From Saliphagus infecundisoli (GTDB lineage Archaea; Halobacteriota; Halobacteria; Halobacteriales; Natrialbaceae), in NCBI RefSeq assembly GCF_020177375.1, contig NZ_JAIWHV010000035.1:1-33164 (forward strand): DNA of 33,164 bases, in the 5' to 3' direction. A program made the translations under genes and the position numbers. This document shows, piece after piece, positions 3,362 to 30,625 of the stretch. The notes below the pieces were generated by a model. It saw only the letters and a list, made by a program, of their open reading frames with translations. It was not told the DNA's origin and searched no databases. Position 1 is the first letter of the stretch, and each line of letters starts with the position of its first letter.

Positions 3362-3415
3362 GCAAAATGATCGCTGCAAGAGAACTCTGGGGTGCGCCGG
3401 TGATTTCAGCCGCCA

Positions 3416-3925
3416 TCCGCGCCCGTACTCGATTCCAGCCGATTTGGTAAGGGACGAAAGAGTGAAATCAATCCATGAGTGATGCTCTCATGGGGGAAGG
3501 GATGTACCAGACATGTCCGTTCTGTGACCGTGTGTTCGAGATCGGGGAATCCGACTACCGGCCGATGAAACATCACATCCGAGCGTTTCATATCGATTCG
3601 GACTCGGACTCGGATGAGGATGTCGTTGATCGGTCGTCACCGACGCCACCAGCCGCACCGCTCTAGGCTAATACCGCTTCAATAGTGAATCGCTAGATTC
3701 AGAGCCTACAGCGCCTCTAGTTCGCATCTAGCAGCTCAAGGCTGAAGCCGCACTAGTACTAGGGTCGTGGCTGTCCACTGCGTTCCGGTAGTCACTGGCC
3801 TGCTCGTCGACGGAGATCGGTGTCGACTGTGCCTGTGGGGCTCGTTTATTTCGCCTCATCGAATGGTCCTTGATTACTCTCACGGCAGGACTTATGCGGC
3901 TCACTCTTCATTCGTGTTACCGTGC
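3416..3925 (+). repeat. Duplicated zinc-finger module, copy A
   Basis: The promoter, the zinc-finger gene and about 160 bases beyond it (3765-3925) are repeated at 9427-9840. Copy A carries about 98 extra bases (3667-3765) that copy B lacks. Past 3925 the similarity ends: copy B continues into a zinc-ribbon gene, copy A into the 3' end of a TumE-like gene. Confidence 0.75.
3502..3666 (+). CDS. 54-residue C2H2-type zinc-finger protein, copy A
   Basis: It starts MYQTCPFCDRVF and carries a CxxC (Cys5, Cys8) followed by His25 and His30, a compact C2H2-like zinc site, and ends in an Asp/Ser-rich tail with PPAAPL. Copy B at 9512-9667 is nearly identical in the finger, and the tails differ by small indels. 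A longer in-frame start at 3475 exists, but copy B is out of frame there, so the internal ATG behind GGGGGAAGGG is preferred. Small haloarchaeal zinc-finger proteins of this size have been linked to regulation of motility or biofilm in other species. Here the role is unknown; DNA, RNA or protein binding are all possible. Confidence 0.75.
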   Translation: MYQTCPFCDRVFEIGESDYRPMKHHIRAFHIDSDSDSDEDVVDRSSPTPPAAPL

Positions 3926-3937
3926 CCGAGACGGCCG

Positions 3938-4360
3938 TCACGTCTCCGCCCACAGTGTTTCGATTCGCTCCGAGACGTAGGCGGTGACGATCGACCACAC
4001 GTCGCGATAATCGCGTGGGAAGTCGGTCGCCGCGGCAGAGCCAGCGTCCGGGGGTGGATGAAAATGGGCTCGGCCGACGGCTTTCGGGTGTCGATCCCAC
4101 CGACACTCCCACGGTGAGCCGTCCGCCCACCGTTCGGAGTAGTGGATCGAAAAATCGCCCCCAACGTACCATCGGACATCGAGCTGGGCTGACTGTACGT
4201 CGTCGGGGAACAGCGAGCGATCATAGGTGGCGACGACCGTTCGGATCCGATCGGACGTGGGCTCGAACGTGACCGTCTCGAATCGATCATCTCCCGTCAG
4301 TCGGTCGTGGATCGAACGACACACTTCCTCGTCCAGCGGTCCAGTCGTTGTCTCGTCCAT
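3938..4360 (-). CDS. TumE-like (DUF6516-type) putative toxin
   Basis: This 140-residue acidic protein has a core rich in Trp, Tyr and His: VRWYVGGDFSIHYSERW, then PWECRWDRHPK and AHFHPPP at about residues 82-121. That layout resembles the TumE/DUF6516 family, proposed ribonuclease-type toxins paired with winged-helix antitoxins. Its ATG directly follows the TGA of the upstream HTH gene, so the two are cotranscribed and probably translationally coupled. The family call is by motif memory and is weaker than for the protein at 14823-15128. It could instead be an unrelated small haloarchaeal protein. Confidence 0.5.
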   Translation of the reverse strand: MDETTTGPLDEEVCRSIHDRLTGDDRFETVTFEPTSDRIRTVVATYDRSLFPDDVQSAQLDVRWYVGGDFSIHYSERWADGSPWECRWDRHPKAVGRAHFHPPPDAGSAAATDFPRDYRDVWSIVTAYVSERIETLWAET

Positions 4361-4888
4361 TCAATCGGCGCGTCCCGTCTCACGAAACACGTCCCGGTCC
4401 TTGCGGGCACGTTCGATCCGCCGGATGTCACGACGAACCGTCTTCCATTCCCCGATCTCCTCCCAGGTCGTCTCGATCGATTCCTCTTCGAGTGCATCGA
4501 CCTCGTGGGGCGTATCGACGCCGTACTGTTCCTGAAAGGCACGGTGTTCCGCGAGGAGCTCCCGAAGGGTGGTTTCGAGCTCGCTATCGGTGCGCTCCCG
4601 CCGGAGTTCGTTCGCGCGAGCCCACTCGATATAAGCGTTGTTTCGTTGATAGCGCTTCGGACGGCCGTCGATCGGTTCGACGATTCCCCGGTCGGCGAGC
4701 CACTCCAACTGCTCGCGTGCGCCATCCGGCGAGCAGCGTGCTCGCTCGGCGACCTCGGCGGCGCTTGCCGGCTCGTAGAGCTGGATCGCCGTCTCGTAGA
4801 CCCGATCGCGCGTCGAGGCATCCCGGTCCCATCGCTGGCGCTCTGCCTCGACTGCGTCGGTGGTCTCGGGATGACCTGCAGGGCACAT
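4361..4888 (-). CDS. Winged-helix regulator, putative antitoxin of the TumE-like pair
   Basis: The protein has 175 residues. A winged helix-turn-helix runs from about residue 30 to 85 (YEPASAAEVAERARC, then QLEWLADRGIVEPIDG). A charged coiled-coil-like C-terminal half follows, rich in Glu and Arg. A near-identical paralog lies at 13694-14221. I chose the ATG at 4888 because a TATA-like ATATAT (4914-4919) lies 26-31 bases upstream and the paralog gives the same length from the same start. It is the first gene of a two-gene operon. It probably represses its own promoter and neutralises the downstream product; that role is inferred. Confidence 0.7.
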   Translation of the reverse strand: MCPAGHPETTDAVEAERQRWDRDASTRDRVYETAIQLYEPASAAEVAERARCSPDGAREQLEWLADRGIVEPIDGRPKRYQRNNAYIEWARANELRRERTDSELETTLRELLAEHRAFQEQYGVDTPHEVDALEEESIETTWEEIGEWKTVRRDIRRIERARKDRDVFRETGRAD

Positions 4889-4910
4889 ACGCTTCGATTC
4901 GGGACTCGTC

Positions 4911-4920
4911 GACATATATC
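4911..4920 (-). promoter_or_regulatory. TATA box of the winged-helix/TumE-like operon
   Basis: Minus-strand GATATATGTC lies 26-31 bases upstream of the ATG at 4888. The equivalent AGATATATCT (14245-14254) sits at the same distance in the paralog. From here to 5209 I see nothing else except weak similarity to the upstream flank of the paralog (about 14290-14360). Confidence 0.5.
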
Positions 4921-5209
4921 TTTGCAGCACGATATATGCAGCCGTTCGTAACACAGTGCTCACGCTGACTGTTCGATCATCTAAGGGTGGATCTCAGTCG
5001 ACAGCCCTCAAGGGAGGTCCAACAGTGCTGGCGTTTCTCTGGCGTCGGTCCGGCGGTATTTTGTTTAGAACTCGTCCCGGCGTGAGAGGGGCCCTTAGAT
5101 GCCAGGACTGGTAGGGGGTCTGGGACTCGTCTCCCTTCGGTCTCCGATCGGGGCGGAGCCAGACCACCTCTGCCGATATGGTTTTGTCCCGATCGCGCGA
5201 TCCCCCGCC

Positions 5210-9334: not shown

Positions 9335-9426
9335 GTGCGATTCTAACAGTAGGACAGGCTCGTCGTTAGGAACGACGACGCACACGGCTCGCCACACGCG
9401 GTTCAAGCGGGATGGTTTCAGCTTCC

Positions 9427-9840
9427 GTCCGAGTCCGTACTCGATTCCAGCCGAATTCGTAAGGGACGAAAGAGTGAAACGAATCCATGAAATACATCCT
9501 CATGGGGAAGGATGTACCAGACGTGTCCATTCTGTGACCGTGTGTTCGAGATTGGGGAATCCGACTACCGGCCGATGAAACACCACATCCGGGCGTTCCA
9601 TACCGATTCGGATGAGGGTGTGGCCGCTGACCCGTCGTCAGTGACGCCACCAGCCGCGCCGCTCTAGGCTAGTCCTCGGTTCGTGACTGTCCGATCGCGT
9701 TCCGTGTCACTAGCCTGTCCGTCGTAGACGGAGATCGGCGTACTGTGTCTCTGTGCGGCTCGTTTTGTAGATCATCGAATGGTCCTCGATCGGTCCCACA
9801 GCAGGACTTATGCGCTCGACCGTTCATTCGTGTCACAGGA
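9427..9840 (+). repeat. Duplicated zinc-finger module, copy B
   Basis: This is the second copy of the block at 3416-3925: promoter, zinc-finger gene and downstream promoter segment ending at gtgtcacaggagg. In this copy the last part drives a 42-residue zinc-ribbon gene. Confidence 0.75.
9512..9667 (+). CDS. 51-residue C2H2-type zinc-finger protein, copy B
   Basis: The finger region is the same as in copy A up to residue 30 (Cys5, Cys8, His25, His30); the acidic tail is shorter and differs. The upstream ATG at 9487, equivalent to 3475 in copy A, is out of frame here because two bases are missing between the starts. Translation must begin at 9512, behind CATGGGGAAGG, if the gene is active. Many third-position differences against an unchanged finger argue that both copies have been kept under selection. 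The likely role is a small zinc-dependent binder; partner unknown. Confidence 0.7.
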   Translation: MYQTCPFCDRVFEIGESDYRPMKHHIRAFHTDSDEGVAADPSSVTPPAAPL

Positions 9841-10414: not shown

Positions 10415-11263
10415 ATGCCTCGCGACAGTACACCCCTGACCCGCGCGCTCGATGACGCGACTCGTGGCAACCAGCATGACGTGTACGGGGTGCTCGCGGC
10501 CTGGGACCAATCGATCGAAACCGCACTCGAACGTGGCGGGGGGACTCGATTTCGGGAGGTGATGCGCCAGTATCTCGACGAGGTGATCGACCTCGTCGAC
10601 GCTGCTGTGGCGACCGAGGCCGAGGGGATCGACTGGGAGTGTCTTCAGGAGTGTGTCGATACATATCCGCCCGGCGTCGGCGATCATCACTGCTCGTCGG
10701 TCGTAGCCAATGTCGTCGCCCGTTGTGTGATCCGGACGCGCGTTCGCGACGGTGCCGACGCGATCCCGACGTGGGCGCTTGAATACCTCGCCGACGTCAC
10801 GATGGACGACGACGGGGAGTGGGCCTGGGAGTCAACCGGCGCGTTCGGTTGGGCGGTCGGTCATTCGGAGGTCGCAGTCCTGGATCGAACACTCGAACGC
10901 GCCGAAAGCGGCGACGAGTCGTGGGTCATGGGCGTGTTGAAACACGTCACGTTCGCCGATCCCGATGCCGGCGTCGACCTTCTGGATCGACTCCTCCAGT
11001 CGCCGGACGTCGTCGAGGACCTCCTGTTCGTTGATCGTCTGGGACCGGTCGAAGAGACGGGCTTCCCCGAGTTCCCACAGTTCTGGGACCCAGAGACTGA
11101 ACTCGAATACGACGTTGACCTCTCCGATGACGTCTACGAACGCCTCCTCGCCGTCGTCGGCGACTCCATCCATCCCGACCGGCTTCGGCGCTTCGACGAC
11201 TCCTACCGGATCGACCTCCGCCGAGCCGCAGACGACTACGGTCCCGCCGGCGAGGACGCATGA
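10415..11263 (+). CDS. Conserved haloarchaeal protein, paralog A of the SprT cassette
   Basis: This 282-residue acidic protein appears mostly alpha-helical. It shares a domain with the protein at 12608-13597: a YP motif at the end of a helix (CVDTYPPG), then SSVVANVVARCVIRTRVRDG, DAIPTWALEYLA, a GWAVGH segment, and FPQFWDPETELEYD. The two are clearly paralogous, but I recognise no named family and no catalytic motif. Its TGA overlaps the ATG of the SprT-like gene by 4 bases (ATGA), so the two are translationally coupled. The ATG at 10415 was chosen because the upstream extension (a GTG at 10373) overlaps decayed sequence. It may be a scaffold or substrate adaptor for the protease. Confidence 0.7.
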   Translation: MPRDSTPLTRALDDATRGNQHDVYGVLAAWDQSIETALERGGGTRFREVMRQYLDEVIDLVDAAVATEAEGIDWECLQECVDTYPPGVGDHHCSSVVANVVARCVIRTRVRDGADAIPTWALEYLADVTMDDDGEWAWESTGAFGWAVGHSEVAVLDRTLERAESGDESWVMGVLKHVTFADPDAGVDLLDRLLQSPDVVEDLLFVDRLGPVEETGFPEFPQFWDPETELEYDVDLSDDVYERLLAVVGDSIHPDRLRRFDDSYRIDLRRAADDYGPAGEDA

Positions 11264-12234
11264 CCGGGTACGACTCGCTTGCCCGCGAAGAGATCGAGGC
11301 CACGATCACCCGGGCCGGGTTCGAACAGTTGTATCCCGAAGCGGTCAGCGTTGAGATCACGGACTCGTTCGGTCGGAAACTCGGCGAGTGTCGTGCGGTC
11401 GCATCGTCGGACGGCGAACCGACGGGGGACTACGAGATCCGCATTGCCCGCCGCTTGTTCGAGGGCGACGACGACGATACGTGGCGGGACACGGTTCGCC
11501 ACGAGGTCGCCCACGCGTACGTTCTCGACACGGTCGGCTCCCACGCACAACCACACGGCGACGAGTGGAAAGCGGCGGCGCGACGAGCGGGTGCGGATCC
11601 GGTCGCCCGCTGCGAGGGCGACGAAACCGTCGACGCGACGTACGTCCTCGCGTGCCCGAACGGCTGTTTCGAACGCGGGTACCTGCAACGCACCGATCGA
11701 GTCAAACAGCCATGGCAGTACACCTGCGATGGGTGTGGGACACAGCCGATCAGCTATGACGTCGGTGAGCGACCAGTCGACCCCGATCCGGGAACCTGTT
11801 ACATGGCGAGCCTCCCGTGGCGAACCCGGAGCGATCGGGACGATGGCGACGACCGGCACAGTTCCGCTCGATACCTGCTTGCCTGTTCGAACGGCTGTAC
11901 AACCTGGCCGTATCAGCGCCGCACGAAACGGATCAAGAACCCGTGGCTGTATAGCTGCCCCGAGTGTGAAGAGACGCTCCTCAGTTGCGATATCGACGAC
12001 CACCCGATCGACCTCGCCCCCGGACGCTGTCACGTGGCGAGCATCCCCTGGCAGGAACCACGACTCGTCCATGCCTGCCCGAACGGCTGTTTCAGCGTGG
12101 GACACGGGCAACACACCGACGAGAGCAGGCACCCAGAGCGGTACCGGTGTGAGGAGTGTGGTACACAAACCGTCGTCTATCCGGCTGACGACCGACCCGA
12201 ATCCCTCGATCCGGGAACGAACTACGTTGACTGA
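11260..12234 (+). CDS. SprT-like zinc metalloprotease with three zinc-ribbon repeats
   Basis: The protein has 324 residues. The SprT-like catalytic domain covers about 1-118, with HEVAH at 81-85 (Glu82 catalytic) and the third metal ligand in HGDEWK (His99). Three zinc modules follow: Cys132-x3-Cys136 with Cys156-x2-Cys159; Cys209/213 with Cys233/236; and Cys273/277 with Cys297/300. Each has the pattern ACxNGC, a basic stretch and a CxxC pair, and the first two end in an MASLPW/VASIPW-like tail. The Spartan/SprT family includes proteases acting on DNA-protein crosslinks; single-ribbon forms are usual, so triplication is unusual. It is coupled to the upstream paralog A gene by an ATGA overlap. 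Confidence 0.85.
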   Translation: MTGYDSLAREEIEATITRAGFEQLYPEAVSVEITDSFGRKLGECRAVASSDGEPTGDYEIRIARRLFEGDDDDTWRDTVRHEVAHAYVLDTVGSHAQPHGDEWKAAARRAGADPVARCEGDETVDATYVLACPNGCFERGYLQRTDRVKQPWQYTCDGCGTQPISYDVGERPVDPDPGTCYMASLPWRTRSDRDDGDDRHSSARYLLACSNGCTTWPYQRRTKRIKNPWLYSCPECEETLLSCDIDDHPIDLAPGRCHVASIPWQEPRLVHACPNGCFSVGHGQHTDESRHPERYRCEECGTQTVVYPADDRPESLDPGTNYVD

Positions 12235-12607
12235 TATCGAGCGATTGCTCGATGACCCAGCGTCCTGGACTTTACCCTGAACTGCGAGATGCGATCGAAA
12301 GAGACTCGTGTGGGTTTCATTGCGAATGAGACCGGCACGTTCTCTACAGAGGTTGAAACTTCGGTGTGGTTGAGCTTTTTATTGAGAATGAGACAGCCAC
12401 GCTCTCGAAACAGATCGAATCTTGAGTGTGAATAACCGGCCCGTAGTACGTGTCTCATTAGTGGCTGGAAACGCCAAGGACAGTCGCCCCATCGGGTGTG
12501 TCTCATTGGTGGCTGGAAACGCCACTCGAATCTATCGAAAACAGTCCCGACAGCAAACAGGCCCAGAACAAAGATATGTGTCGTCCCCGTCCGCTCTCAC
12601 ACGAACG
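12235..12607. promoter_or_regulatory. Regulatory region with repeated GTCTCATT sites
   Basis: Four exact GTCTCATT octamers occur: two on the minus strand (12325-12332, 12387-12394) and two on the plus strand (12452-12459, 12500-12507). A near-copy, GTTTCATT (12314-12321), faces the first and makes an imperfect palindrome. The two plus-strand sites are part of a 27-base tandem repeat with a 48-base period. A TATA-like GATATG (12573-12578) lies about 32 bases upstream of the ATG at 12608. Confidence 0.55.
12450..12524 (+). repeat. 27-base direct repeat, two copies
   Basis: The copies at 12450-12476 and 12498-12524 differ at one base. The unit starts GTGTCTCATT and ends in TGGC-tggaaac-GCCA, a 4-base hairpin. 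The 21 bases between them are unrelated. They probably act as operators for the following gene. Confidence 0.7.
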
Positions 12608-13597
12608 ATGCCCCACGAGTGTGATGCCTGCGGTGAGACGTTTTCGACGCTGAGCCGCCTTCGCCTGCACGACTGCCCGGCAGCGGAGCCTACAAGCCAG
12701 AATTCCCTCTCTTCGTTCGGCGGGTTCCTCGATTCGATTTCGGACGCGCTCGAAGCCGACATGCAGCAAAACATACAACAGCGTGAGAAACGGGGACTCG
12801 ACGCCGCGAGCGAGACATTGAAAACGACCCTTGAGTCGGTCGCCCAGGGAGACGACGACGCCGCGGTCGGATTGATTGCCCAGTACGAACGAGAACTCCG
12901 GGAGTACTACGACGCCGAGGACTACGACACGTATCGTGGACTCCTCTGGGCGTTTTACGAACCGATCACGGAAGCCCTCGACGAGATCGCCACCCGCGAG
13001 GGCTGGGACTTCCTGGCGGATCTGGTCGATGCCTATCCACGCGAGAGCAACACGGATGAACCCTATTCGAGTCCGGTGATCGAGAACGTCGTCGGGCGAC
13101 ACGTCATCCGGAGACGGCTGGGCGACGGCGTCGAGGCGATCCCGGTCGAGGCACTCGCGTATCTCGGCTCGTTCTGGGAGTCGATGGGCGACGTCAGTGG
13201 TGAAGAGTCGTTCGCGTACGGCTGGGGGATCGGCCATCCTGACCACTCGGTCGCGGATCGCCTCCACGACGTCGCCACTGAAGAACTGTTCTGGGTGCGA
13301 GGGGTGCTCCCGCACGCGTTTTATGCCGATCAGTATGCCGCGGCCGACCTGCTCGAGGCCTTGCTCACCGCGGATCGCATCGACTACGAGGATCGATATC
13401 TACTGGCGTCTGCTCTCTGCGACCTCGAACAGGGGTACGTAACGCAAACCCCCCGCTACTGGAATCTTCACGAGGAACTGGACTACCGGTTCGAGTGGGA
13501 CGAGTCGGTGAGAGAGCGGCTGCGAGACACGATCGAGGACGAGGGATTTCACCGGCGCCTTCCCGAGGACTGGACGTTCTCGGATATGGAGATCTGA
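12608..13597 (+). CDS. Zinc-finger protein with paralog-A-like domain (paralog B)
   Basis: The protein has 329 residues. A C2H2-type finger at the N-terminus (CDACGETF, then LRLHDC) is followed by a linker with Gln- and charge-rich helices (about 40-85). A domain clearly related to the protein at 10415-11263 follows: DAYP, SSPVIENVVGRHVIRRRLGDG, EAIPVEALAYLGS, GWGIGHPD, TPRYWNLHEELDY. The ATG at 12608 directly precedes the finger and lies about 32 bases below a TATA-like box, so the transcript would be leaderless or nearly so. It is separated from the SprT gene by 373 bases of repeat-rich DNA, so it has its own control. The finger suggests it binds nucleic acid or a partner; function unknown. 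Confidence 0.75.
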   Translation: MPHECDACGETFSTLSRLRLHDCPAAEPTSQNSLSSFGGFLDSISDALEADMQQNIQQREKRGLDAASETLKTTLESVAQGDDDAAVGLIAQYERELREYYDAEDYDTYRGLLWAFYEPITEALDEIATREGWDFLADLVDAYPRESNTDEPYSSPVIENVVGRHVIRRRLGDGVEAIPVEALAYLGSFWESMGDVSGEESFAYGWGIGHPDHSVADRLHDVATEELFWVRGVLPHAFYADQYAAADLLEALLTADRIDYEDRYLLASALCDLEQGYVTQTPRYWNLHEELDYRFEWDESVRERLRDTIEDEGFHRRLPEDWTFSDMEI

Positions 13598-13690
13598 GCG
13601 GTATCGAGGAGGAACTCGACGGGGCTCGGCCGGAGGTGCTCCAACCGGTTCTGGCTCGGGAGTTGGCAGCTGATCCCGATCTCGAACGGC
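13598..13690 (+). pseudogene. Short fragment of an unknown plus-strand gene
   Basis: A frame reading GIEEELDGARPEVLQPVLAR then ELAADPDLERRVN has strong haloarchaeal coding character, but neither a start nor a continuation. It is cut where the duplicated winged-helix gene begins. The parent gene is not recognised. Confidence 0.35.
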
Positions 13691-13693
13691 GGG

Positions 13694-14221
13694 TCAATCC
13701 GCGCGTCCCGTCTCACGAACCACGTCCCGGTCCTTGCGGGCACGTTCGATCCGCCGGATGTCACGACGAATCGTCTTCCATTCCCCGATCTCCTCCCAGG
13801 CCGTCTCGATCGATTCCTCTTCGAGTGCATCGACCTCGTAGGGCGCATCAACGCCGTACTGTTCCTGAAAGGCATGGTGTTCCGCGAGGAGCTCCCGAAG
13901 GGTGGTTTCGAGCTCGCTATCGGTGCGCTCTCGCCGGAGCTCGTTCGCGCGAGCCCACTCGACGTAGGCGTTGTTTCGCTGATAGCGCTTCGGACGGCCG
14001 TCGATCGGTTCGACGATTCCCCGATCGTCGAGCCACTCCAACTGCTCGCGTGCCCCATCCGGCGAGCAGCGTGCTCGCTCGGCGACCTCGGCGGCGGTCG
14101 CCGGCTCGTAGAACTGGATCGCGGTCTCGTAGACCCGATCGCGCGTCGAGGCATCCCGATCCCATCGCTGGCGTTCCGCCTCGACTGCGTCGGTGGTATC
14201 GGGATGACTTGCAGGGGGCAT
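13694..14221 (-). CDS. Winged-helix regulator, orphan paralog of the antitoxin at 4361
   Basis: This 175-residue protein has the same length as its paralog and most residues are identical (the wHTH segment YEPATAAEVAERARC, the RIVEPIDG-type wing region, and the Glu/Arg-rich C-terminal half). The TATA box AGATATATCT (14245-14254) and start context are conserved. The similarity stops exactly at the stop codon: here no TumE-like gene follows, whereas in the other copy its ATG is adjacent. It is therefore an antitoxin without its toxin, perhaps kept as an anti-addiction gene or a regulator that can act on the other operon. A functional TumE pair lies just to the right but uses a different HTH protein. 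Confidence 0.75.
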   Translation of the reverse strand: MPPASHPDTTDAVEAERQRWDRDASTRDRVYETAIQFYEPATAAEVAERARCSPDGAREQLEWLDDRGIVEPIDGRPKRYQRNNAYVEWARANELRRERTDSELETTLRELLAEHHAFQEQYGVDAPYEVDALEEESIETAWEEIGEWKTIRRDIRRIERARKDRDVVRETGRAD

Positions 14222-14398
14222 ACGCTTCGATTCGGCCCTCGTCGAGATATATCTGTGTAGCACGACATATGCAGTCGGTCGTACCACGATGTTCGCACCG
14301 AGCCATCCGGGTTTGATTCCCGTCGACGACCCTCGTAGGGGTACGCTCCAGCAGTGGCGACGTCTGTCGGCGGGGGCAGTTGCTAGTCGGATGTTCGT

Positions 14399-14803
14399 TT
14401 AGGAGTGTGCTGTGTCAGCGTTTCCACCCGGGCCAGCAAAAGGAAGGTCGATTTCGAGACCGTCGTAGGCCAGTTGTGGTTTCTTTGCCTGGCCAGCGCC
14501 GCCCCCGTCGAAGTCGATGATGCCGATGTCCTCGAGTTCGGAGAGGTTCCGATGGACCTGTTTGTAATCACGATCGACGACCTCGGCAGCGTCGCGAATG
14601 CTTGCAGGCTCGTGTTCGGTAATCGCTTCGAGGAGCTCGAGATTTGTCGGGCTGAGGAGCCGGCTCAGTTCCGCGTACGACCCGACGTTCAACACGGGTT
14701 GTACGTCGTCGAGGGCCGCCCCCTCTTGGGCGGCACTGATCCGCTGGCGTGTCCGCTGATCGAGGCGCGTCCGTTCGCCGACTGTGATTTTGAGTGTTGG
14801 CAT
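14399..14803 (-). CDS. Winged-helix antitoxin partner of TumE-like toxin
   Basis: The protein has 134 residues. After a basic N-terminal strand (MPTLKITVGERTRLDQRTRQ) comes a winged helix at about residues 48-95: LLSPTNLELLEAITEHEPAS, DAAEVVDRDYKQVHRNLSEL and the wing EDIGIIDFDG. The type resembles the haloarchaeal HVO_A0114-like/MarR-like regulators found next to DUF6516 genes. It lies 19 bases downstream of the toxin gene with a ribosome-binding site, AAGAGGTCACCC, before its ATG. The toxin-first order is the reverse of the pair at 3938-4888. It would bind DNA and neutralise the toxin; the role is inferred from context. Confidence 0.75.
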   Translation of the reverse strand: MPTLKITVGERTRLDQRTRQRISAAQEGAALDDVQPVLNVGSYAELSRLLSPTNLELLEAITEHEPASIRDAAEVVDRDYKQVHRNLSELEDIGIIDFDGGGAGQAKKPQLAYDGLEIDLPFAGPGGNADTAHS

Positions 14804-14822
14804 GGGTGACCTCTTGGGAGTG

Positions 14823-15128
14823 TTACGTCGACCAGTTCGATGAAACGGGTGTCTGCTCGTCTACTTCCCGTTTGAACCGCTCGTAGAGCGCCAGCATCCC
14901 CGGGAAGTCGATGACTTCGACGGTCGTCCCGGTGTGGCGCTCGTGGCCCTTCGTTCGTTCGTGGGCGTTGTCGTACCGAAGGACGGTGTCGCCGCCGATT
15001 TCCCCGACGTGGAGGCTGTAATCCCACCCGCTCGGGTACTTGTCGTCCTCGGTCTGGCGGATGGTAACGCTCACGACGTAGCCCTCTTGGACGTCCTGCC
15101 AATCCTCGACCGTCGTATAGGCGGCCAT
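14823..15128 (-). CDS. TumE-family (DUF6516) putative toxin
   Basis: This 101-residue protein has the central pattern of DUF6516/TumE: YPSGWDYSLHVGEIGGD, then VLRYDNAHERTKGHERHT, a beta-rich core with conserved Tyr-Asp-Asn and clustered His. A helical end (GMLALYERFKREV) follows. The family is annotated as the toxin of TumE/TumA-type type II toxin-antitoxin systems, thought to act on RNA. It is the first gene of a two-gene operon with the winged-helix protein at 14399-14803. An AT box, GATTTATT (15158-15165 on the plus strand), lies about 33 bases upstream of the ATG and suggests a very short leader. Confidence 0.75.
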   Translation of the reverse strand: MAAYTTVEDWQDVQEGYVVSVTIRQTEDDKYPSGWDYSLHVGEIGGDTVLRYDNAHERTKGHERHTGTTVEVIDFPGMLALYERFKREVDEQTPVSSNWST

Positions 15129-21385: not shown

Positions 21386-22849
21386 TCAAATATAGCCTAA
21401 ATCCTCCAGTCTCTGTTTCGTTCCCTTACTCATCTCTTGGTCTCTCTCCCTCGCTGTAGTCTGTTCAAAAGACTCTAACCATGCATCAAGGCGATTGATC
21501 AGTTCGTCCCTAACACCGGGCTCTTCGCTTGATTTATCCGTCTGCTCATTAGGGTCATCTTCGATATTATAGAGGGAAATATCCCCTTCAGACCCTCTGA
21601 TCAGTTTGTACTCCTCTGTCCTGATCGTTCTCATGGATCGACCAAATTCATCAAGTTCTTCTTCAGGTATGCCCGTCTGATCACTCAAACTCGCTATACT
21701 CGGTTGCGGAGAGAGGTATTCTGCAATGGCTTGGTCACGCGACGCTGTAGACGAATTTGGATGGAAGGAAGTCCCCTGTGCTTGCTCCGGGATCGTGAGT
21801 CCTGCAATATCCAAAATCGTCGGGAACAAATCCAGCGTTTGAATCCGCTTATCTGAATCCCCAACCTGATTGAACCGCCCACCATGAATGATTAGGGGCA
21901 CATGAAGAAGAGTATCGTGTACGGAATATTGGTGATCCATCAGCCCATGGTCGCCGATGTTTTCACCGTGATCTCCAACAATGATGAAAACTGTATCATC
22001 CCATTCTCCATACCGTTCAAATACTGATCGTAATTCCCGTATTTGTTCGTCAAGATACGCTATCTCTGCACGATATAATGCCCGTAATAGTTCGAAATCA
22101 AGGTTGGTCATCTCAAGGACACCTGCGCTGTACTCCCACGGTTTCTGAGGGACTGCCATCGCTTCACGATACGTACTGCCTTCTGGCAAGAACTTCTTCA
22201 CGAGTCTTTTTGGCGGCTGATAGTCTAAGTGGGGTTCAAGATAATTGATGAACATAAAGAAGGGCGCGTCCTGATCTCTATTTTGAATCCACTTTTCAAC
22301 CAGCGAGTTCGTTCGTTTCGCCCCGTAATCACTTTGGCGATAGAAAAACTGACCATAGATCGCATTTATAAAGTTTGCAAATATTTCCCCACTAACAAGC
22401 TCTGAGAGGCCTTCTCTAATTAGCTCTCCTCCGTCTGATGTGAGTTTAATCTTACCAAAGTCCGTTTCAGATTGTATGTACTGCCACACTTTGAACATTT
22501 CGTCAAACCCACTATTCAGACCAAATTCGCCAGTCACCCACGCATTATTGGTAAAACCGACAGTCTGATACCCGTCATCAGAGAGCAAATCAGCAATAGT
22601 CGGGAATTGTCCGTCGTAGAACTTGCTACCTGCGTGTGTTCCATGTTTAGAGGTATAGGTCCCAGTGAACATCGACGTGTGAGATGGGAGGGTCCAAGGA
22701 GCATTTGTGAAGGTGTTACTATACGCTGCTCCCGTAGCGGCTAACTCCTCTAAGCACGAATCCCTGATCGTGTTCCGAACATAGCTCGTATCGCTTTCAC
22801 GTGCTGTATCCATTACGACGAGCACGATATTTGCTCTCCCGTTTCCCAT
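21386..22849 (-). CDS. Sulfatase/alkaline-phosphatase-superfamily enzyme 1
   Basis: The protein has 487 residues. Metal-site Asp14 lies in IVLVVMDTARES; the nucleophile region is APWTLPSHTSMFTG (Thr53 where classical sulfatases have Cys/Ser and His57 where they have Arg); and the second metal site is VGDHGENIGDHG (about 291-302). There is no formylglycine-type C-x-P-x-R, so it may be a Thr-nucleophile phospho- or sulfo-transferase/hydrolase rather than a true sulfatase. No signal peptide is seen, so it probably acts inside the cell. I chose the ATG at 22849 because MGNGRANIVLVV begins the first strand. The end, RLEDLGYI, is shared with the other two. It likely modifies glycan intermediates. 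Confidence 0.85.
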   Translation of the reverse strand: MGNGRANIVLVVMDTARESDTSYVRNTIRDSCLEELAATGAAYSNTFTNAPWTLPSHTSMFTGTYTSKHGTHAGSKFYDGQFPTIADLLSDDGYQTVGFTNNAWVTGEFGLNSGFDEMFKVWQYIQSETDFGKIKLTSDGGELIREGLSELVSGEIFANFINAIYGQFFYRQSDYGAKRTNSLVEKWIQNRDQDAPFFMFINYLEPHLDYQPPKRLVKKFLPEGSTYREAMAVPQKPWEYSAGVLEMTNLDFELLRALYRAEIAYLDEQIRELRSVFERYGEWDDTVFIIVGDHGENIGDHGLMDHQYSVHDTLLHVPLIIHGGRFNQVGDSDKRIQTLDLFPTILDIAGLTIPEQAQGTSFHPNSSTASRDQAIAEYLSPQPSIASLSDQTGIPEEELDEFGRSMRTIRTEEYKLIRGSEGDISLYNIEDDPNEQTDKSSEEPGVRDELINRLDAWLESFEQTTARERDQEMSKGTKQRLEDLGYI

Positions 22850-22936
22850 AGATATAGGATCAATATGTTCGCCAATCAAAAAACTGCGCTGTTTCCGATC
22901 CTGGTTTCTCGAAGGGTATATTTGAATTGATGAGAT

Positions 22937-24121
22937 ATGCTATCTAAAGTGGCTGATCAAAATTCTTCAACCGGCGAGGAATTAAACCCAAGTCTTCGGG
23001 TTCTAGCTCTGAACAAGCGGAGCTGGCACCATTCTTCGGCCGGCGGTTCTGAACTAAACCTGGAGGAAACTACGAAACGTCTTGCACAGCGCGAGCACGA
23101 GGTTCACCTTCTGACCGGCTCTGATGGAGGCCGACCGCGGACGGAACTCGACGACTCTGTATTCATTCATCGAGTCGGATTCGACGAGAAGGTGCCCGCA
23201 CCTTGGGACGTTGTAATCTCGTACCTTACGATCTCATTGTATTTTTACTGGTATTTATACAAATTATCTCCTGACGTCGTCTATACTGTAAATACGCCGC
23301 TACCTTGGCCAGTGGTTACCCGGAAGCCGCGAGTCTCTATCTTTCACCATATCGCGATCAACTCGTTCTTCGAAACACACCCGTTCCCTCAGAACGTCTT
23401 AGGTTACGTCTCTCAGTCGTTCGGTGTGTTTCGTGAGCGACAGAATTTGACAATAAGCGTTAGTCCGAGTACGACCGAGGAACTAGTTAACCGAGGGCAC
23501 AGTCCGGAGACCGTTTACGAGATTCGAAATGGTCTTGACGTGGAACGATATCGTCCCGGAACAGAGTCCTCTACCCCTCGTATAGTGTATATCGGCGGAC
23601 TTGAGCGGTACAAAGGAGTGGACCGCATTCCCGAAATCCATGAGATGGTACAAGAGATTAGTGGCACTTCTATTCGGCTTGACGTCGCTGGTCGGGATGG
23701 TCCGGTAAAGGATACTATCGCCGAATATTGCTCATCGACAAGCGATGCACACTATCACGGGTTCGTGTCTTTGGAAAAAAAGATCGATCTTCTTCAGTCT
23801 GCATGGGTGTTTATTGCTCCCAGCCGAGTGGAAGGATGGGGAATTGCGGTATTAGAAGCGAATGCCTGCGGTACGCCTGCAGTCGGGCGCAACGTAAGCG
23901 GTCTCCGTGACTCAATTCGACACAACGAAACCGGACTATTAGTGGATGGCGCCGATCCAAACGAATTTGCGAAAGCGGTATACCGACTTCTGGAGGACAC
24001 CCGACTGAGGAGAGAAGTTGGTGAGAATGCACGAAATTGGGCAGAGAAACATACTTGGGAAACATCTACCGATCAACTTGAAGAACTCTTACTCTCAACC
24101 GTCCCGGAAACTGATCGATAG
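22937..24121 (+). CDS. GT4 glycosyltransferase 1
   Basis: This 394-residue GT-B protein has an acceptor-side N-terminal domain with the glycine loop SSAGGSELNLEE and the strand-turn REHEVHLLTG. The donor side begins IVYIGGLERYKGVDRIPEIH, then HYHGFVSLEKKIDLL, APSRVEGWGIAVLEANACGT (the E-x7-E motif) and TGLLVDG. Family members transfer a sugar from an NDP-sugar to a lipid- or glycan-linked acceptor at the inner face of the membrane. It reads divergently from sulfatase 1, and its 3' end overlaps the next, oppositely oriented GT4 gene by 49 bases. Confidence 0.92.
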   Translation: MLSKVADQNSSTGEELNPSLRVLALNKRSWHHSSAGGSELNLEETTKRLAQREHEVHLLTGSDGGRPRTELDDSVFIHRVGFDEKVPAPWDVVISYLTISLYFYWYLYKLSPDVVYTVNTPLPWPVVTRKPRVSIFHHIAINSFFETHPFPQNVLGYVSQSFGVFRERQNLTISVSPSTTEELVNRGHSPETVYEIRNGLDVERYRPGTESSTPRIVYIGGLERYKGVDRIPEIHEMVQEISGTSIRLDVAGRDGPVKDTIAEYCSSTSDAHYHGFVSLEKKIDLLQSAWVFIAPSRVEGWGIAVLEANACGTPAVGRNVSGLRDSIRHNETGLLVDGADPNEFAKAVYRLLEDTRLRREVGENARNWAEKHTWETSTDQLEELLLSTVPETDR

Positions 24122-25251
24122 CACTCTTCCAATCGATCGATTCGAGACTCTATCGCGAAATGCTGTTCTGCACTCTCACGCGCTTTCTGGCTCATTATTG
24201 CGACTTTCTTCGGGTTATTAGCACACTCTACAATCCCTTCAACTAACTCATCGGCATCGCCTGGCTCTACGAGTACACAGTTTTCACCGTCAGTCATTCC
24301 AGGAGCCTTCTCAGAGAGCTTAGAGGCGATAACTGGCGTTCCGGATGCACATGCTTCCATTATCGTCAGCGTCGGGAACGCCTCTCCACTCTTTGAGGTG
24401 AAGAGGAACCCATCTGCAGCTGCATAGTACCTCTTTAGTTTACTATCAGTCACCTTGCCGTAAAATTCTAGACAGTCCAACGTGTTAGCGGCCATCTCAA
24501 CCACAGACCGCATCGGTCCATCCCCTGCAATGACGACGTGTACCTCCTGTCCACGCCGATCTAAGATGCGTAATGCGTCAAGTAACACACTGAGCCCCTT
24601 CTTTTCAGAAAGTCGAGATAGAGAGAATAGAACTGGAGTGTCCGGGTCGCAGTCAAATACGTCCTGTTTGGTACCATTGTCTGGATGGTACTCGTCAGTA
24701 TTGATTCCGTTTACTAGTATCTCGGGGTTTAGACTGTGATCTATTCGGGAGACGTACTGCCGGACATTACGGCTGACACAGAACACATGGTCCGCCTGCC
24801 GAAGGTTCCAGAGTCCAACGGTTCGGTCATTGGCTTTCTCTATCAACTCGAACGGTACTGGATATTCGACGAACGGTGTATGCTGGTGGAGGACCACTGG
24901 GCACTCTATGGGTGTATATCGTAGAATGGCTGTAGTCGTCAGATAGTTCATCCCATGAACATGTACGATATCGATTTTCGAATTCGTGAAGATTTCTACG
25001 ATGCGCTTTCGTGCGTTAACTGGATTCGGTATAGGGTACGGGGCGCCAAGTTTCTCGGCAGGGTTCCACGCCTTGTAACGATGGACTCTGTACCCATCAC
25101 GCATAATATCCATCGATTCGGCGTCGATATCACTACAAACTACTATGACCTCGTGTCCTCGATTTGCCAGTCGTTTAGCGTGTGACTCGACGACCGATTC
25201 GATCCCACCAATGTGGGGTGAAAAATAATGGGATGCGAGAATTATTTTCAT
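24073..25251 (-). CDS. GT4 glycosyltransferase 2
   Basis: This 392-residue GT-B enzyme starts MKIILASHYFSPHIGGIES (acceptor-side loop) and has DIVHVHGMNYL. Its donor domain has LFSLSRLSEKKGLSVLLDAL, VVIAGDGPM, EFYGKVTDSKLKRYY and SKSGEAFPTLTIMEACASGT. The two Glu of the usual E-x7-E motif are one residue further apart here (EAFPTLTIME), a small oddity I checked by reading the minus strand. Its 3' end overlaps that of GT4-1 convergently. An NDP-sugar donor is expected; specificity is unknown. Confidence 0.92.
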   Translation of the reverse strand: MKIILASHYFSPHIGGIESVVESHAKRLANRGHEVIVVCSDIDAESMDIMRDGYRVHRYKAWNPAEKLGAPYPIPNPVNARKRIVEIFTNSKIDIVHVHGMNYLTTTAILRYTPIECPVVLHQHTPFVEYPVPFELIEKANDRTVGLWNLRQADHVFCVSRNVRQYVSRIDHSLNPEILVNGINTDEYHPDNGTKQDVFDCDPDTPVLFSLSRLSEKKGLSVLLDALRILDRRGQEVHVVIAGDGPMRSVVEMAANTLDCLEFYGKVTDSKLKRYYAAADGFLFTSKSGEAFPTLTIMEACASGTPVIASKLSEKAPGMTDGENCVLVEPGDADELVEGIVECANNPKKVAIMSQKARESAEQHFAIESRIDRLEECYRSVSGTVESKSSSS

Positions 25252-25370
25252 TTTTATTGTATGGATAAACTACTGCTGACACGAAACATATCTGACTGAC
25301 GTGACTCATCCGTAATATTGTTTTTCTTTTCGGAACGCTTAGCACGCCCCGGCAAGATATTCAACTCAAT
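25252..25370. promoter_or_regulatory. Divergent promoter region between two GT4 genes
   Basis: This 119-base AT-rich stretch separates two head-to-head genes. TATA-like elements are visible on both strands (TTTATCC at about 25263-25269 on the minus, taatatt at about 25313-25319 on the plus), but none is spaced clearly enough to fix a start. Confidence 0.4.
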
Positions 25371-26576
25371 ATGGCCAAGATCTGTCTGGTTAACGGTGTT
25401 TATCCACCCGATGATTTTGGGGGCGCGGAAAACTATGTCCAGAGGACAGCACACGCGCTGAAAAAACGCGGCCACGACGTGTCTATTTTGACCACGACTA
25501 GAAATGCCTCTCAGGAGACGCTTAGTGTAAAAAAGGAATTCCGAAACGGAATTCCGGTTTTTCGCTTCTATCCGCTTAATTTCTCACATAGGAGCGACGG
25601 AACAGGTGGCAACCTAGCTACCCAGGCGCTCTGGCATCAATTTGATACCATCAACCCACACGCAAAGCGGGTGGTGAGCGATTTTCTATCCACGTACCAG
25701 CCAGATATCGTCCACTCCAACAACTTTATGGGTATTACTGCGTCGGCGGGAAAAGCAATATCTGACGCTGACGTCCGGTACGTTCATACACTCCACGACT
25801 ACAGTCTCATCTGCCCAAAAAGCAATCTGCTTAGAGAGATGACCGCCCCAGATAATGACGTCGCAGTCTGTGATTCTCCGCCGATACCGTGTCGTATGTA
25901 CGCTGGTGCAAAACGACGGATGATCGGCGAGCCAGATATCATAGTCGGCCCGAGTCAGCACGTAATTGACATACACGAGAAACACGGTTTTTTCAAAAAC
26001 ACCAAGACAACACGTATACAACACGGTATTGAGGATTTCGCAAGTTCACTCCCCAAGGGGTCTTGTCAATCGGTTCTATACGTGGGTAAGCACCTTCGTG
26101 CCAAAGGCCTTGAGACACTGTTCGAAGCTGCTAGGCTTTTGCCTAATGTGAGATTTCATCTGTGTGGGACCGGACCATACGACGATCGATCCAGAGCGGT
26201 CGCAGAAAACCGAGCTAACGTTGAATACCACGGGTTCGTGTCCGATGAACGCCTTCGTGAATTACGCCATAAGGTTTCTGCTGCTGTTGTACCTTCAGTA
26301 TGGATGGAAAATTCTCCGCTGACGATCTATGAAAGTTTCGCTAACGCTCTCCCAGTTATTGGCGCTGACATCGGTGGCATCCCTGAACTAGTGAACCGCA
26401 GTCGGGGGCGATTATTCACCCCGAAAGATGCTGAAGAACTCGCTAATCGAATTATCGAACTAACGCAGGAAGCTAACTTACGTGATTTACGCTCTAATGC
26501 ATATCAATGGGCGAAAAATCGGACGTTCGATCATCACGTCAGTGAATTGGTCCAGGCGTACACTGCATCTATTTGA
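25371..26576 (+). CDS. GT4 glycosyltransferase 3
   Basis: This 401-residue GT-B enzyme has the N-terminal loop NGVYPPDDFGGAENYVQR, VHSNNFMGITAS and YVHTLHDYSLICP (a common GT4 motif). Its donor domain has SVLYVGKHLRAKGLETLFEA, FHLCGTGPYD, EYHGFVSDERLREL and ENSPLTIYESFANALP with correct E-x7-E spacing. It probably adds one sugar of the island glycan. It is convergent with sulfatase 2 (8-base 3' overlap). A 9-base perfect inverted repeat (25535-25555) lies inside the coding region and is probably chance. Confidence 0.92.
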   Translation: MAKICLVNGVYPPDDFGGAENYVQRTAHALKKRGHDVSILTTTRNASQETLSVKKEFRNGIPVFRFYPLNFSHRSDGTGGNLATQALWHQFDTINPHAKRVVSDFLSTYQPDIVHSNNFMGITASAGKAISDADVRYVHTLHDYSLICPKSNLLREMTAPDNDVAVCDSPPIPCRMYAGAKRRMIGEPDIIVGPSQHVIDIHEKHGFFKNTKTTRIQHGIEDFASSLPKGSCQSVLYVGKHLRAKGLETLFEAARLLPNVRFHLCGTGPYDDRSRAVAENRANVEYHGFVSDERLRELRHKVSAAVVPSVWMENSPLTIYESFANALPVIGADIGGIPELVNRSRGRLFTPKDAEELANRIIELTQEANLRDLRSNAYQWAKNRTFDHHVSELVQAYTASI

Positions 26577-27753
26577 GGTATCCAAGCTCTTCTAGACGGT
26601 CTTTTGCGGTTTCGCCCAGCGAAACATGGCTACTTTGTGTAGTGGTGGAATTTATCCATTTTCCGAGAGTTTCATCGAATTCCTCCGCTTTGCCAGGCGG
26701 ATCTCCAAACTGTTCGCGACCAGAGATGTAAGATTTTAACCCTCGAACTGCCCGCTTCCGTGCCAAACGCTTCGATGGCGCAAAGAATAGGTCGCCGATG
26801 AACCCGGGTGATCGCTCTCGGAACGATGCACGTGGATACACGTATCCGCCATTAGCATCCCAGACACTCTCGTACCTTGTTTTTCCTGTAATCGGAACGT
26901 ACGGTATATCGTGTTGTTTTTCGTAGAATGAAAAGCTAACATCGGCTGATGTAGTCGGTGTGTCATCGATCGGCCCTTGATTGACTTCCACATCAAGTAA
27001 ATCAATGATTAGAGGTAGTAATTCTACATGACTAATATGGTTGTCAACACTTTTCTCTGGAAGGTTTGGATGCATGAATACGGTAGGTACATACACTAGT
27101 TCCGGTCGGATGGGACCATTATGACCAAACATCCCTCCCTCTCCGAGGAGTTCACCGTGATCTGAGGTATAGATCACAAACGTATCGTCTAGCAATCCCT
27201 CTGATTCAAGTTCTTCAATCCGTTGACTGAACGTCTTTGCGTCACTTTCAATGCCGACATAGTACTCGTTTTTGATTTCTTCAACAGTACGTTCTTTTCG
27301 CGCATCGAAATATTCGGTCACCGTCCCTTCAAAGTTCCCATAGGGGGCGTGTCCTCCCTGTCCGCGTTCCATCACGACAAACGGTGGTGAGATAGACTTG
27401 AATGGGTCATTCGTATCTCTTGCAGGTTGGTCAAGCACTGAATAGATAGGATCTTCAGAGCCTGAAACACCGATTGAATTGACAAAACGGGTTTGATGAT
27501 CCTGAAGATCAAACAGCGTTGGGATGGAATCGGGAACGCGACAATCAAAATCGGTAACACCGTGTGTTATCATATATTTTGCGGTGACAATTGTAGCAAA
27601 CGATGTTGGGGAGTGGATCGAACCGGCAACTGTTTTTGCGACGACCCCTCTCTTTGAGATACTATCGGGAAGCCCATCCCACCTTACAGCATCTGCAACA
27701 TATATAAAGACATTATCAACGTCTAAATCTGAAACCAGCTTTTTTAGGTTCAT
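26569..27753 (-). CDS. Sulfatase/alkaline-phosphatase-superfamily protein 2
   Basis: The protein has 394 residues. Metal-site Asp21 lies in VFIYVADAVRWD, and the second site is TSDHGELLGEGG with Asp198/His199. The nucleophile segment is SIHSPTSFATIVTAK: the position of the catalytic Cys/Ser/Thr (two before Pro49) is His47, and the usual closing Gly is Ala. The neighbouring Ser48, Thr50 or Ser51 may serve instead, or the protein may be catalytically changed. It has no signal peptide. It ends RLEELGYLK, like its two relatives. It probably acts on the same glycan pathway. Confidence 0.8.
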   Translation of the reverse strand: MNLKKLVSDLDVDNVFIYVADAVRWDGLPDSISKRGVVAKTVAGSIHSPTSFATIVTAKYMITHGVTDFDCRVPDSIPTLFDLQDHQTRFVNSIGVSGSEDPIYSVLDQPARDTNDPFKSISPPFVVMERGQGGHAPYGNFEGTVTEYFDARKERTVEEIKNEYYVGIESDAKTFSQRIEELESEGLLDDTFVIYTSDHGELLGEGGMFGHNGPIRPELVYVPTVFMHPNLPEKSVDNHISHVELLPLIIDLLDVEVNQGPIDDTPTTSADVSFSFYEKQHDIPYVPITGKTRYESVWDANGGYVYPRASFRERSPGFIGDLFFAPSKRLARKRAVRGLKSYISGREQFGDPPGKAEEFDETLGKWINSTTTQSSHVSLGETAKDRLEELGYLK

Positions 27754-27814
27754 ATTTCTGTAATAACTAGTTATTATATGTGTGTTTTAATGTTTTGTTC
27801 ATACGATATTGTTA

Positions 27815-29146
27815 TCACACATATCCAAGATCGTCAAGCCGGTCCACTACTTCCTCACTCATTTCATGGTCGTTTTCAGTAATTTTTCTTTCCGATATGG
27901 ATTTTTTGATTTCTGCTAAAACGTCCTTTGGGCTCTGTACTGGTTTGCCTTCGCCAGAATAACCGTCTATCGTTTCATGACCGTAGTATCTTGGTGGAAC
28001 CCCAATGCCGGATAGTCGTAAATCATATGTATCGATCAATTTTTGAGAGATATTTTCTTTTTCAAGTCGTTGGACTGCTACTGGGATAAGCCCATGGTAT
28101 TCTGTAAGCACCGGTTTTCCCTCTCCCAGTTCTAATAGATTTCTACCCCGTGACTGACCATTAATGTCGGCCATAGCCAATACTGTTTGGTAAATGTCAA
28201 GATGGCTTACCATTGCATCTGTCCGGCCGGTCAGGTCTTTACCTGAGATGACGAGCGGAACGTGCGTAATTTCGGGAAAGAGTCCATAAGTATGGTTCCA
28301 GACATCCGATTCCCCTAGCATCTCTCCATGGTCAGCTACCGTGATGACGTAGTCGAAGGATGAAGACAATTCCTTAAATATCTCTCTGTACACTGTAGAT
28401 AGATATTTACAGGTATCGTAGTACGCTTGTACCGTCCCATCGCGTGGACTATCGATGCCGAGCGAGTCTTTTATCGTGACCGTGATTTTGTCGTCAGGAT
28501 TCGGACCGTCAAAGCCAATTGGTGTGTAGTAGGGCGTGTGAGCTTCCATCAAATTCAAATATAGAAACTCGTCTGTTCCAAAACTTCTCTGTGAGACCAG
28601 ATCCTCTATTACCGATGCACCACTATCCGGGACGTTGTTTATTGCCTCAGTACCACCTCGTGCATAAGCGATCCCGTTCCAAAGTGACTGCCATGTATCA
28701 TACTCCGAATGGTAACACTTCGACAGCGCGCTCCAATACTTTCCAACACGTGTAGTCAACTTATTGTCAGAGTAACTGAATTTACTCCAATCAACAATGT
28801 CTTCATCACCGGTCATCAATTTGCTTGCTCCAATAAATTCGTTGAATCCACGATCCCATTGGCGATTAGGAGAGATGTTCGGATTCGCAGTCCAACACCG
28901 CGTACGGTATCCTCCCTTCTGGAGTTGCTCCGGTAGTACATTCCCATCAACATCTAACGATGGAGACTTAGCGTGTACCCCAATCTCTGACGGATATTCT
29001 CCAGTAAACATCGACCCGTTGGCCGGAGATGTCCAGTTCGCAGTCGAGAACGCATTTTCGAATTTACGCCCTGGAAGCCAGTCAAAGTGCATATCGAAAG
29101 CGTCTTTTCGGAGGGTATCGAGGACAACTAAGGCTATATTTGACAT
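27815..29146 (-). CDS. Sulfatase/alkaline-phosphatase-superfamily enzyme 3
   Basis: The protein has 443 residues. It starts MSNIALVVLDTLRKDAF with metal-site Asp10. The nucleophile region is ANWTSPANGSMFTG with Thr39 at the Cys/Ser position, the same Trp-Thr as in enzyme 1. The second metal site is ADHGEMLGES (Asp272/His273). The ATG at 29146 was chosen because the first strand begins there; an open frame extends up to 29212 but is not protein-like. The end, RLDDLGYV, matches the other two. It lies upstream of and in the same direction as protein 2 with a 61-base gap, so the two may be cotranscribed. Confidence 0.85.
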   Translation of the reverse strand: MSNIALVVLDTLRKDAFDMHFDWLPGRKFENAFSTANWTSPANGSMFTGEYPSEIGVHAKSPSLDVDGNVLPEQLQKGGYRTRCWTANPNISPNRQWDRGFNEFIGASKLMTGDEDIVDWSKFSYSDNKLTTRVGKYWSALSKCYHSEYDTWQSLWNGIAYARGGTEAINNVPDSGASVIEDLVSQRSFGTDEFLYLNLMEAHTPYYTPIGFDGPNPDDKITVTIKDSLGIDSPRDGTVQAYYDTCKYLSTVYREIFKELSSSFDYVITVADHGEMLGESDVWNHTYGLFPEITHVPLVISGKDLTGRTDAMVSHLDIYQTVLAMADINGQSRGRNLLELGEGKPVLTEYHGLIPVAVQRLEKENISQKLIDTYDLRLSGIGVPPRYYGHETIDGYSGEGKPVQSPKDVLAEIKKSISERKITENDHEMSEEVVDRLDDLGYV

Positions 29147-29311
29147 AGATGGCTTTGTTTCCCGAATACGATAGATACGGTGTTTGTTCGAAACATTTAG
29201 CCAAACAATCATGGGGCCGTAATATCAATATTTTGGTTCTATGATTAGATACTTGGGCTCTGTAGTTTCGGTACACGGCGGCGGATTTCATGGATATCGG
29301 ACGCTGGGGGG

Positions 29312-29569
29312 AAGGTTGTAGACGGTGGATTTGCGCAGCATTTCACGGAACTCGAGCCACCAGCTTCGCGCACGCACGTCAGCGCCGAGCGTGCGCTTGA
29401 TCGACGAGAAGACGGTTTCTGACATGGAGCGCTGATGGTACCGATCACTGTCCATGCGGGCGTTATGGGCGTGATCGAGCGGATTCATGATACGGTGTTT
29501 GATGAGGGGTCGGACGCCGTTTTCACGGAGTTCGTCGCGGAACGCTCTCGCGTCGTACCGAACAGCAAG
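29312..29569 (-). mobile_element. IS5-like transposase C-terminal fragment
   Basis: The frame reads YDARAFRDELRENGVRPLIK, MNPLDHAHNARMDSDRY, then HQRSMSETVFSSIKRTLG and WWLEFREMLRK...VYNL. This is the DDE C-terminal signature of IS5/IS4-superfamily transposases common in haloarchaea. Everything N-terminal is missing, and the fragment abuts the ISH3 remnant. It is dead. Confidence 0.75.
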
Positions 29570-30506: not shown

Positions 30507-30600
30507 ACACTCCCCAAGCAGACGCTTACTCTAACCCGATGTGATCGACTGAACTTTAGATAGCGTAGTGGGACGTTGGGTCTCAGACCAGAGTTGTTAA

Positions 30601-30615
30601 ATGCCAAACTGGCAT
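30601..30615. promoter_or_regulatory. Inverted repeat just before the membrane-protein gene
   Basis: ATGCCA-aac-TGGCAT is a perfect 6-base-arm palindrome ending 10 bases before the ATG at 30626. It lies between the ISH3 remnant and the gene and could be an operator at the transcription start or an IS end. Confidence 0.4.
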
Positions 30616-30625
30616 CCATCGAACT

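Follow-up and report, generated by a model that had tools for sequence, protein, structure and literature searches.

Background

SprT proteases act on proteins that are crosslinked to DNA. The human protease SPRTN has one zinc-binding domain, which binds single-stranded DNA (ssDNA) and helps to couple the protease activity to DNA structure (PMC12279946). The antirestriction function of ArdC works without protease activity (PMC7213743). XPB-Bax1, whose genes recur near relatives of the proteins studied here, is an archaeal helicase-nuclease repair machine (PMC7293015). For haloarchaeal SprT proteases, no papers were found in a search of open-licence literature. Here we analyze three neighboring genes, named A, S, and B, in a 33,164-nucleotide (nt) stretch of Saliphagus infecundisoli DNA (contig NZ_JAIWHV010000035.1 of assembly GCF_020177375.1, positions 1-33,164, forward strand), referred to below as the window. 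S encodes a predicted SprT-like protease with three zinc ribbons, and its neighbors A and B encode paralogous proteins of an unnamed family.

A recurring gene set in Halobacteria

The distribution of the three genes was surveyed in 391 Halobacteria genomes, and genome contigs and plasmid records were also searched. S is rare, being present in 7 of the 391 genomes, with additional copies in Haloterrigena sp. H1 and on a Halovenus salina plasmid from the contig and plasmid searches, and the domain shared by A and B was found in 50 of the 391. An intact A lies directly upstream of S at seven of the nine intact S loci; of the remaining two, one (L055) keeps a remnant of A upstream of S, and the other (L049) has a transposase open reading frame at the contig end. 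The stop of A and the start of S overlap by the 4-bp sequence ATGA at four of the seven loci with intact A, and by 1 nt at a fifth. B follows S directly at five of the nine loci. This neighborhood comparison had been set beforehand as a test by the preliminary description of the DNA; the pairing of A with S stood, and that of B stood in part.

The complete order PRiA4_ORF3-A-S-B-SWc was identified in three genera, Halalkalirubrum, Natrinema, and Haloterrigena; SWc encodes a protein with homology (33% identity) to the helical tail that SWIM proteins carry. Behind SWc, Halalkalirubrum has three genes on the opposite strand, namely two small ones, of which the first is helix-turn-helix (HTH)-like, and then one for a SWIM zinc-finger protein. 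On the Halovenus plasmid, the order is PRiA4_ORF3-A-S-SWIM-helix-hairpin-helix (HhH) protein. Decayed copies were also found: on a Halalkaliarchaeum plasmid, an IS5 element interrupts S; at L060, A is deleted and S is down to its last 39 residues; and at L056, A is reduced. With its patchy intact and decayed copies, the A-S-B set presents itself as a recurring, mobile accessory cassette of haloarchaea, and the pairing within it is conserved. The ratios of nonsynonymous to synonymous substitution rates (dN/dS) were 0.13-0.28. Comparing the window genes with their orthologues gave 0.19-0.22 (A), 0.13-0.17 (S), and 0.14-0.19 (B). With dN/dS of 0.13-0.22 for the window genes, A, S, and B are therefore genuine genes under purifying selection.

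S is a predicted SprT-type protease with triplicated zinc ribbons

The preliminary description had placed a SprT-like HExxH protease between two proteins sharing an unnamed domain, and both parts of this observation were reproduced. S matches the SprT-like family PF10263 in the Pfam scan with an E value of 2.7e-12 (47 bits, cut-off 25.6). Across seven orthologues from Natrialbaceae, Halorubrum, Halalkalirubrum, and Halococcus, the residues H81, E82, V-A, H85, and H99-G100 are invariant, as are the 12 cysteines of the triple zinc ribbons already noticed there. The ribbons are three CX3C-X19-CX2C units of around 60 residues each. Pairwise hhalign comparison gave 46% identity between ribbons 1 and 2 (P 5e-31), 47% between ribbons 1 and 3 (4e-21), and 33% between ribbons 2 and 3 (2e-13), and by these alignments the ribbons are a true tandem triplication. 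Of the three, ribbon 1 most resembles the one ribbon present in the chromosomal haloarchaeal SprT (hhalign Prob 93%). In the phylogenetic tree, S forms its own clade with 100% support, apart from the one-ribbon and two-ribbon SprT proteins, and the AlphaFold2 model built from seven sequences predicts the protease half with good confidence. S is thus predicted to be a zinc metalloprotease of the SprT type.

A and B belong to an unnamed family of likely solenoids

Over 261 residues, A and B are 27% identical (E 6e-25), as expected of paralogues. The A-type proteins form one clade of the family tree with a support of 100, and the B proteins of the cassette form another; a recent local duplication as the origin of A and B is excluded by this tree, and the two are anciently diverged. 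The N-terminal finger that the preliminary description assigned to B as C2H2 is present, but it is not canonical: its spacing is CX2C-X12-HXC, it reaches 13.9 bits against a cut-off of 25 for the C2H2 pattern CX2-4C-X12-HX3-5H, and it misses every Pfam cut-off. The finger is kept in most B-type relatives. Beyond the finger, the AlphaFold2 model of B is all-helical, with a mean predicted local distance difference test score (pLDDT) of 89.4 and a predicted template modeling score (pTM) of 0.81. The nearest Protein Data Bank (PDB) structures found by Foldseek are designed armadillo repeats, the ARM domain of SARM1, and importins, with a best E value of 9e-3 and a template modeling score of around 0.3. 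Judged from the model and these weak matches, the A/B fold is likely of the ARM/HEAT-like solenoid class. A Pfam scan of A and B for repeat families gave no match, and no family for the A/B domain was found in Pfam, NCBIfam, PADLOC, PHROGs, or PDB sequences. A match of A to an alkyl-sulfatase dimerisation domain was rejected as weak (E 0.15).

The neighbors of the wider family were investigated at 67 A/B loci within 5 kb of the A/B gene. SWIM or SWIM-tail genes were found at 20 of the 67 loci, XPB at 21, and Bax1 at 14, and the three families were confirmed by Pfam in representatives. A haloarchaeal genome holds about 1.4 SWIM and 1.2 Bax1 matches on average (SWIM-tail proteins without a SWIM motif are not in this background), and chance therefore predicts SWIM or Bax1 beside an A/B gene at about half a percent of loci. 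The enrichment is strong, but it is not calibrated because some of the loci share ancestry.

Several individual loci of the family are worth recording. In S. infecundisoli itself, an accessory XPB-Bax1 pair has a B-family gene next to it (positions 3820-8273 of L081, G000:C41:4000-14542). A Halococcus dombrowskii plasmid (L109, 3723-6418) has a two-ribbon SprT, an uncharacterized gene, and then a B-family gene, which looks like a second, independent SprT-B association. On a Halorussus aquaticus plasmid (L111, 9151-14205), a B-family fragment precedes macro-domain proteins and an AAA ATPase of the CDC48 family. Directly after several XPB-Bax1-linked A/B genes, at L087 (7177-8282) and similar loci, lies a gene for a 64-residue histone-fold-like protein with a weak DUF1931/Histone match.

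The cassette copy in the window

The features of the window copy are collected in Table 1. The stop of A and the start of S overlap as ATGA, and the gene positions and structure given in the preliminary description were correct.

Table 1 Positions of the cassette genes and their sequence features in the window
Feature	Positions	Strand	Basis
A, A-type member of the A/B family, likely solenoid, 282 residues, without finger	10415-11263	+	MPRD start kept in orthologues
S, predicted SprT-like zinc metalloprotease, three zinc ribbons, 324 residues	11260-12234	+	PF10263; orthologue alignment; dN/dS
HEVAH catalytic motif of S, residues 81-85	11500-11514	+	Invariant, 7 orthologues
Third metal ligand of S, H99 within PHG, as in the SprT type	11554-11556	+	Invariant, 7 orthologues
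Zinc ribbon 1 of S, residues 127-187; C132, C136, C156, C159	11638-11820	+	Orthologue alignment
Zinc ribbon 2 of S, residues 204-264; C209, C213, C233, C236	11869-12051	+	Orthologue alignment
Zinc ribbon 3 of S, residues 268-324; C273, C277, C297, C300	12061-12231	+	Orthologue alignment
MITE-like repeats between S and B, nested: outer copy 12327-12369 and 12478-12524, interrupted by 108-bp copy 12370-12477	12327-12524	unassigned	
B, 329-residue finger-plus-solenoid protein (ATG 12608, stop 13597)	12608-13597	+	MPHEC start kept in orthologues
CX2C-X12-HXC finger of B; C5, C8, H21, C23	12608-12676	+	Strand-strand-helix in model, pLDDT 86-88
SWc (SWIM-tail) gene, truncated start, next gene of the complete cassette	13594-13695	+	52% identity to residues 1-40 of the L048 protein

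The spacer between S and B measures 373 nt in the window, compared with around 90 nt at four orthologous loci. It contains nested repeats resembling miniature inverted-repeat transposable elements (MITEs). More copies of the inner 108-bp unit occur elsewhere in the S. infecundisoli genome with 70-97% identity, and the unit is absent from the orthologous spacers. A genomic copy was found in which both outer parts are contiguous, which indicates that the 108-bp unit entered a similar element that was already in place. The unit has imperfect inverted ends (TTGAGGTTTTCA / TGAAAACGCCAA) and a fold z of -2.8; these inverted ends and the hairpin potential agree with a MITE. The family of around 108-bp repeats is dispersed over contigs C39, C7, C15, C5, C26, C32, C18, and C76 of the genome (G000). 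The preliminary description had read the leader of B as its own regulated promoter. This reading is not supported by the orthologue and genome comparison, as the leader is filled with repeats that the orthologues lack. The repeat may have brought promoter elements to this gene, but by the same comparison it does not represent ancestral regulation of B.

Both sides of the window copy are disrupted. Only the first 34-40 codons of SWc remain, and the DNA homology ends around position 13695, precisely at the start of a DUF7342 gene copy that is 94% identical to the DUF7342 gene at 4361-4954. To the left of A, the duplicated flanking sequence stops at 9836, and no remnant of PRiA4_ORF3 was detected between 9836 and A. 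A duplicated block (78-94% identity) with the DUF7342 winged-helix gene is located at 3401-4963 and again at 9413-9836 plus 13694-14287. With parts of the duplicated segment at both sides, the A-S-B block sits between them, and the duplicated block appears to flank the cassette and to be split by it.

Further along the window, a TumE toxin (PF20126, E 5.5e-14) and an adjoining HVO_A0114-type HTH protein are encoded at 14399-15128 on the minus strand, just downstream of the cassette; they likely form a toxin-antitoxin pair. The region 21386-32395 has a lower GC content with sulfatase-like and glycosyltransferase-like genes, and it is apparently a separate surface-glycan island.

Proposed mechanism and alternative explanations

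We tentatively favor a mechanism, to which we give nearly an even chance, in which the solenoid proteins act as adaptors that position the SprT protease S on DNA-bound proteins, the whole forming a mobile accessory module. We infer the proteolysis, the DNA binding, the complexes of A and B with S, and the substrate of the cassette. S would cleave proteins held covalently or tightly on DNA, such as DNA-protein crosslinks and stalled complexes; its possible role in crosslink repair is suggested by the homology to SprT. The triplicated ribbons would hold S on nucleic acid or on a DNA-bound protein by multivalent contact. A would be the dedicated partner of S, co-expressed with it and recruiting or restraining the protease, and B, where present, would be a further adaptor, equipped with a finger, that recruits or restrains S as well. 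Several observations weigh against this mechanism. B is missing at four of the nine S loci, and A occurs without S at at least two loci (L064 and L090). The ribbon region of S is poorly modeled by AlphaFold2, with a mean pLDDT of 53.8, and the neighbor counts are partly dependent, some A/B loci having a cassette ancestry in common. Furthermore, solenoids are frequent in unrelated processes too.

The cassette may instead serve anti-virus or anti-plasmid defence or conflict, with solenoids that sense a protein or DNA complex of the invader and with S destroying a viral or host protein bound to DNA. Its patchy, mobile, and often decayed distribution and its toxin-antitoxin, AbiE-type, and insertion-sequence neighbors would suit such a function, as would the weak resemblance of the cassette SWIM protein to the defence candidate PDC-S62 (two matching stretches with E 5e-22, the best one at residues 9-135). 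We nevertheless consider it unlikely: no PADLOC model matched A or S, the only match of B (LeoBC, E 0.026) is very weak, the neighbor proteins gave TnpB-type matches and scattered single CRISPR genes but no recurring known system, and the match of XPB to PbeA is confined to the helicase domains. An enrichment of defence islands around the cassette loci was tested and is unsupported. The preliminary description had proposed that the paralogues are adaptors or regulators of a crosslink-repair or defence-like module; the solenoid fold and the XPB-Bax1 neighbors fit an adaptor, while defence is not established by PADLOC or by the neighbors. Its observation is confirmed, and its interpretation as a whole is partly supported.

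IrrE belongs to the DNA-linked gluzincin proteases (PMC7213743), and winged-helix genes are found near many A/B loci, which would agree with S cleaving a DNA-bound repressor, as in the IrrE/DdrO pair, with A and B as sensory partners in stress gene regulation. No single conserved repressor gene lies next to S, however, IrrE-type domains were unmatched in the Pfam scan, and HTH genes are frequent in haloarchaeal islands anyway, all of which makes such regulation quite improbable. We regard as still less probable that the cassette protects or establishes incoming element DNA in the manner of ArdC rather than serving host repair. S-type genes do occur on the Halovenus and Halalkaliarchaeum plasmids, and the metalloprotease domain of R388 ArdC resembles Spartan (PMC7213743); yet S differs from ArdC in its domains and third metal ligand (see below), pattern scans of viral contigs for S, A, and B and a search of phage records with B gave no matches, and some of the cassette remnants are found in contigs that are several Mb long. 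Least probable of all is that the genes merely travel together as island neighbors without joint function. The islands are gene-rich and rearranged, and the window copy is cut at both cassette sides, but the gene order and spacing are fixed in different genera with start/stop overlaps, almost every S still has A, or what remains of it, at its side, and purifying selection acts at comparable levels on all three genes.

The conserved two- or three-gene set, with its likely dedicated partner, offers a small and testable case of SprT targeting in which ubiquitin-type parts are lacking. Related A/B proteins appear to serve accessory XPB-Bax1 helicase-nuclease and SWIM modules elsewhere, and the analysis ties an unnamed family present in around one in eight of the sampled Halobacteria to DNA-repair-type neighbors. 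The further step, that A/B is an unnamed solenoid adaptor family for interchangeable effectors of mobile DNA-processing modules (multi-ribbon SprT at some loci, XPB-Bax1 or SWIM at others) and that these together represent an undescribed archaeal system for taking proteins off DNA, is possible but rather doubtful.

Comparison with described systems

XPB-Bax1 is a recurrent neighbor of A/B relatives and points to DNA repair, but it is a different effector from S; near the S cassettes, only an N-terminal XPB fragment is found, beside some of them. With ARM/HEAT-repeat solenoids, A and B may have in common a predicted all-helical superhelix; no significant sequence match to these solenoids was obtained. 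ArdC of conjugative plasmids resembles S in its plasmid association and its Spartan-like metalloprotease domain. It differs in its N-terminal ssDNA-binding domain, for which S gave no match in the Pfam scan, and in its third metal ligand, which is Glu in ArdC (PMC7213743) and His99 in S, as in Spartan.

Among the SprT proteins, the two-ribbon plasmid-type SprT of H. dombrowskii and its relatives have extra ribbons as S does, and in H. dombrowskii a B-family gene is nearby; it nevertheless belongs to a separate lineage with 27% identity to S, and no A-type gene was seen adjoining it. The chromosomal haloarchaeal SprT, including the second SprT of S. infecundisoli (G000:C22), shares the family and the ribbon type with around 30% core identity to S, but it is a protein of around 190 residues with one ribbon that is widespread in Halobacteria, and the S clade is separate from it. 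SprT/Spartan (SPRTN, PF10263) and S have in common the HExxH motif, the third His, and a C-terminal zinc ribbon. Eukaryotic SPRTN continues with a C-terminal basic region and SHP, PIP, and UBZ motifs that bind p97, PCNA, and ubiquitin (PMC12279946), for which there is no room in S, as it ends with ribbon 3 at residue 324. Where SPRTN has one ribbon, S has three in tandem and is accompanied by predicted solenoid proteins.

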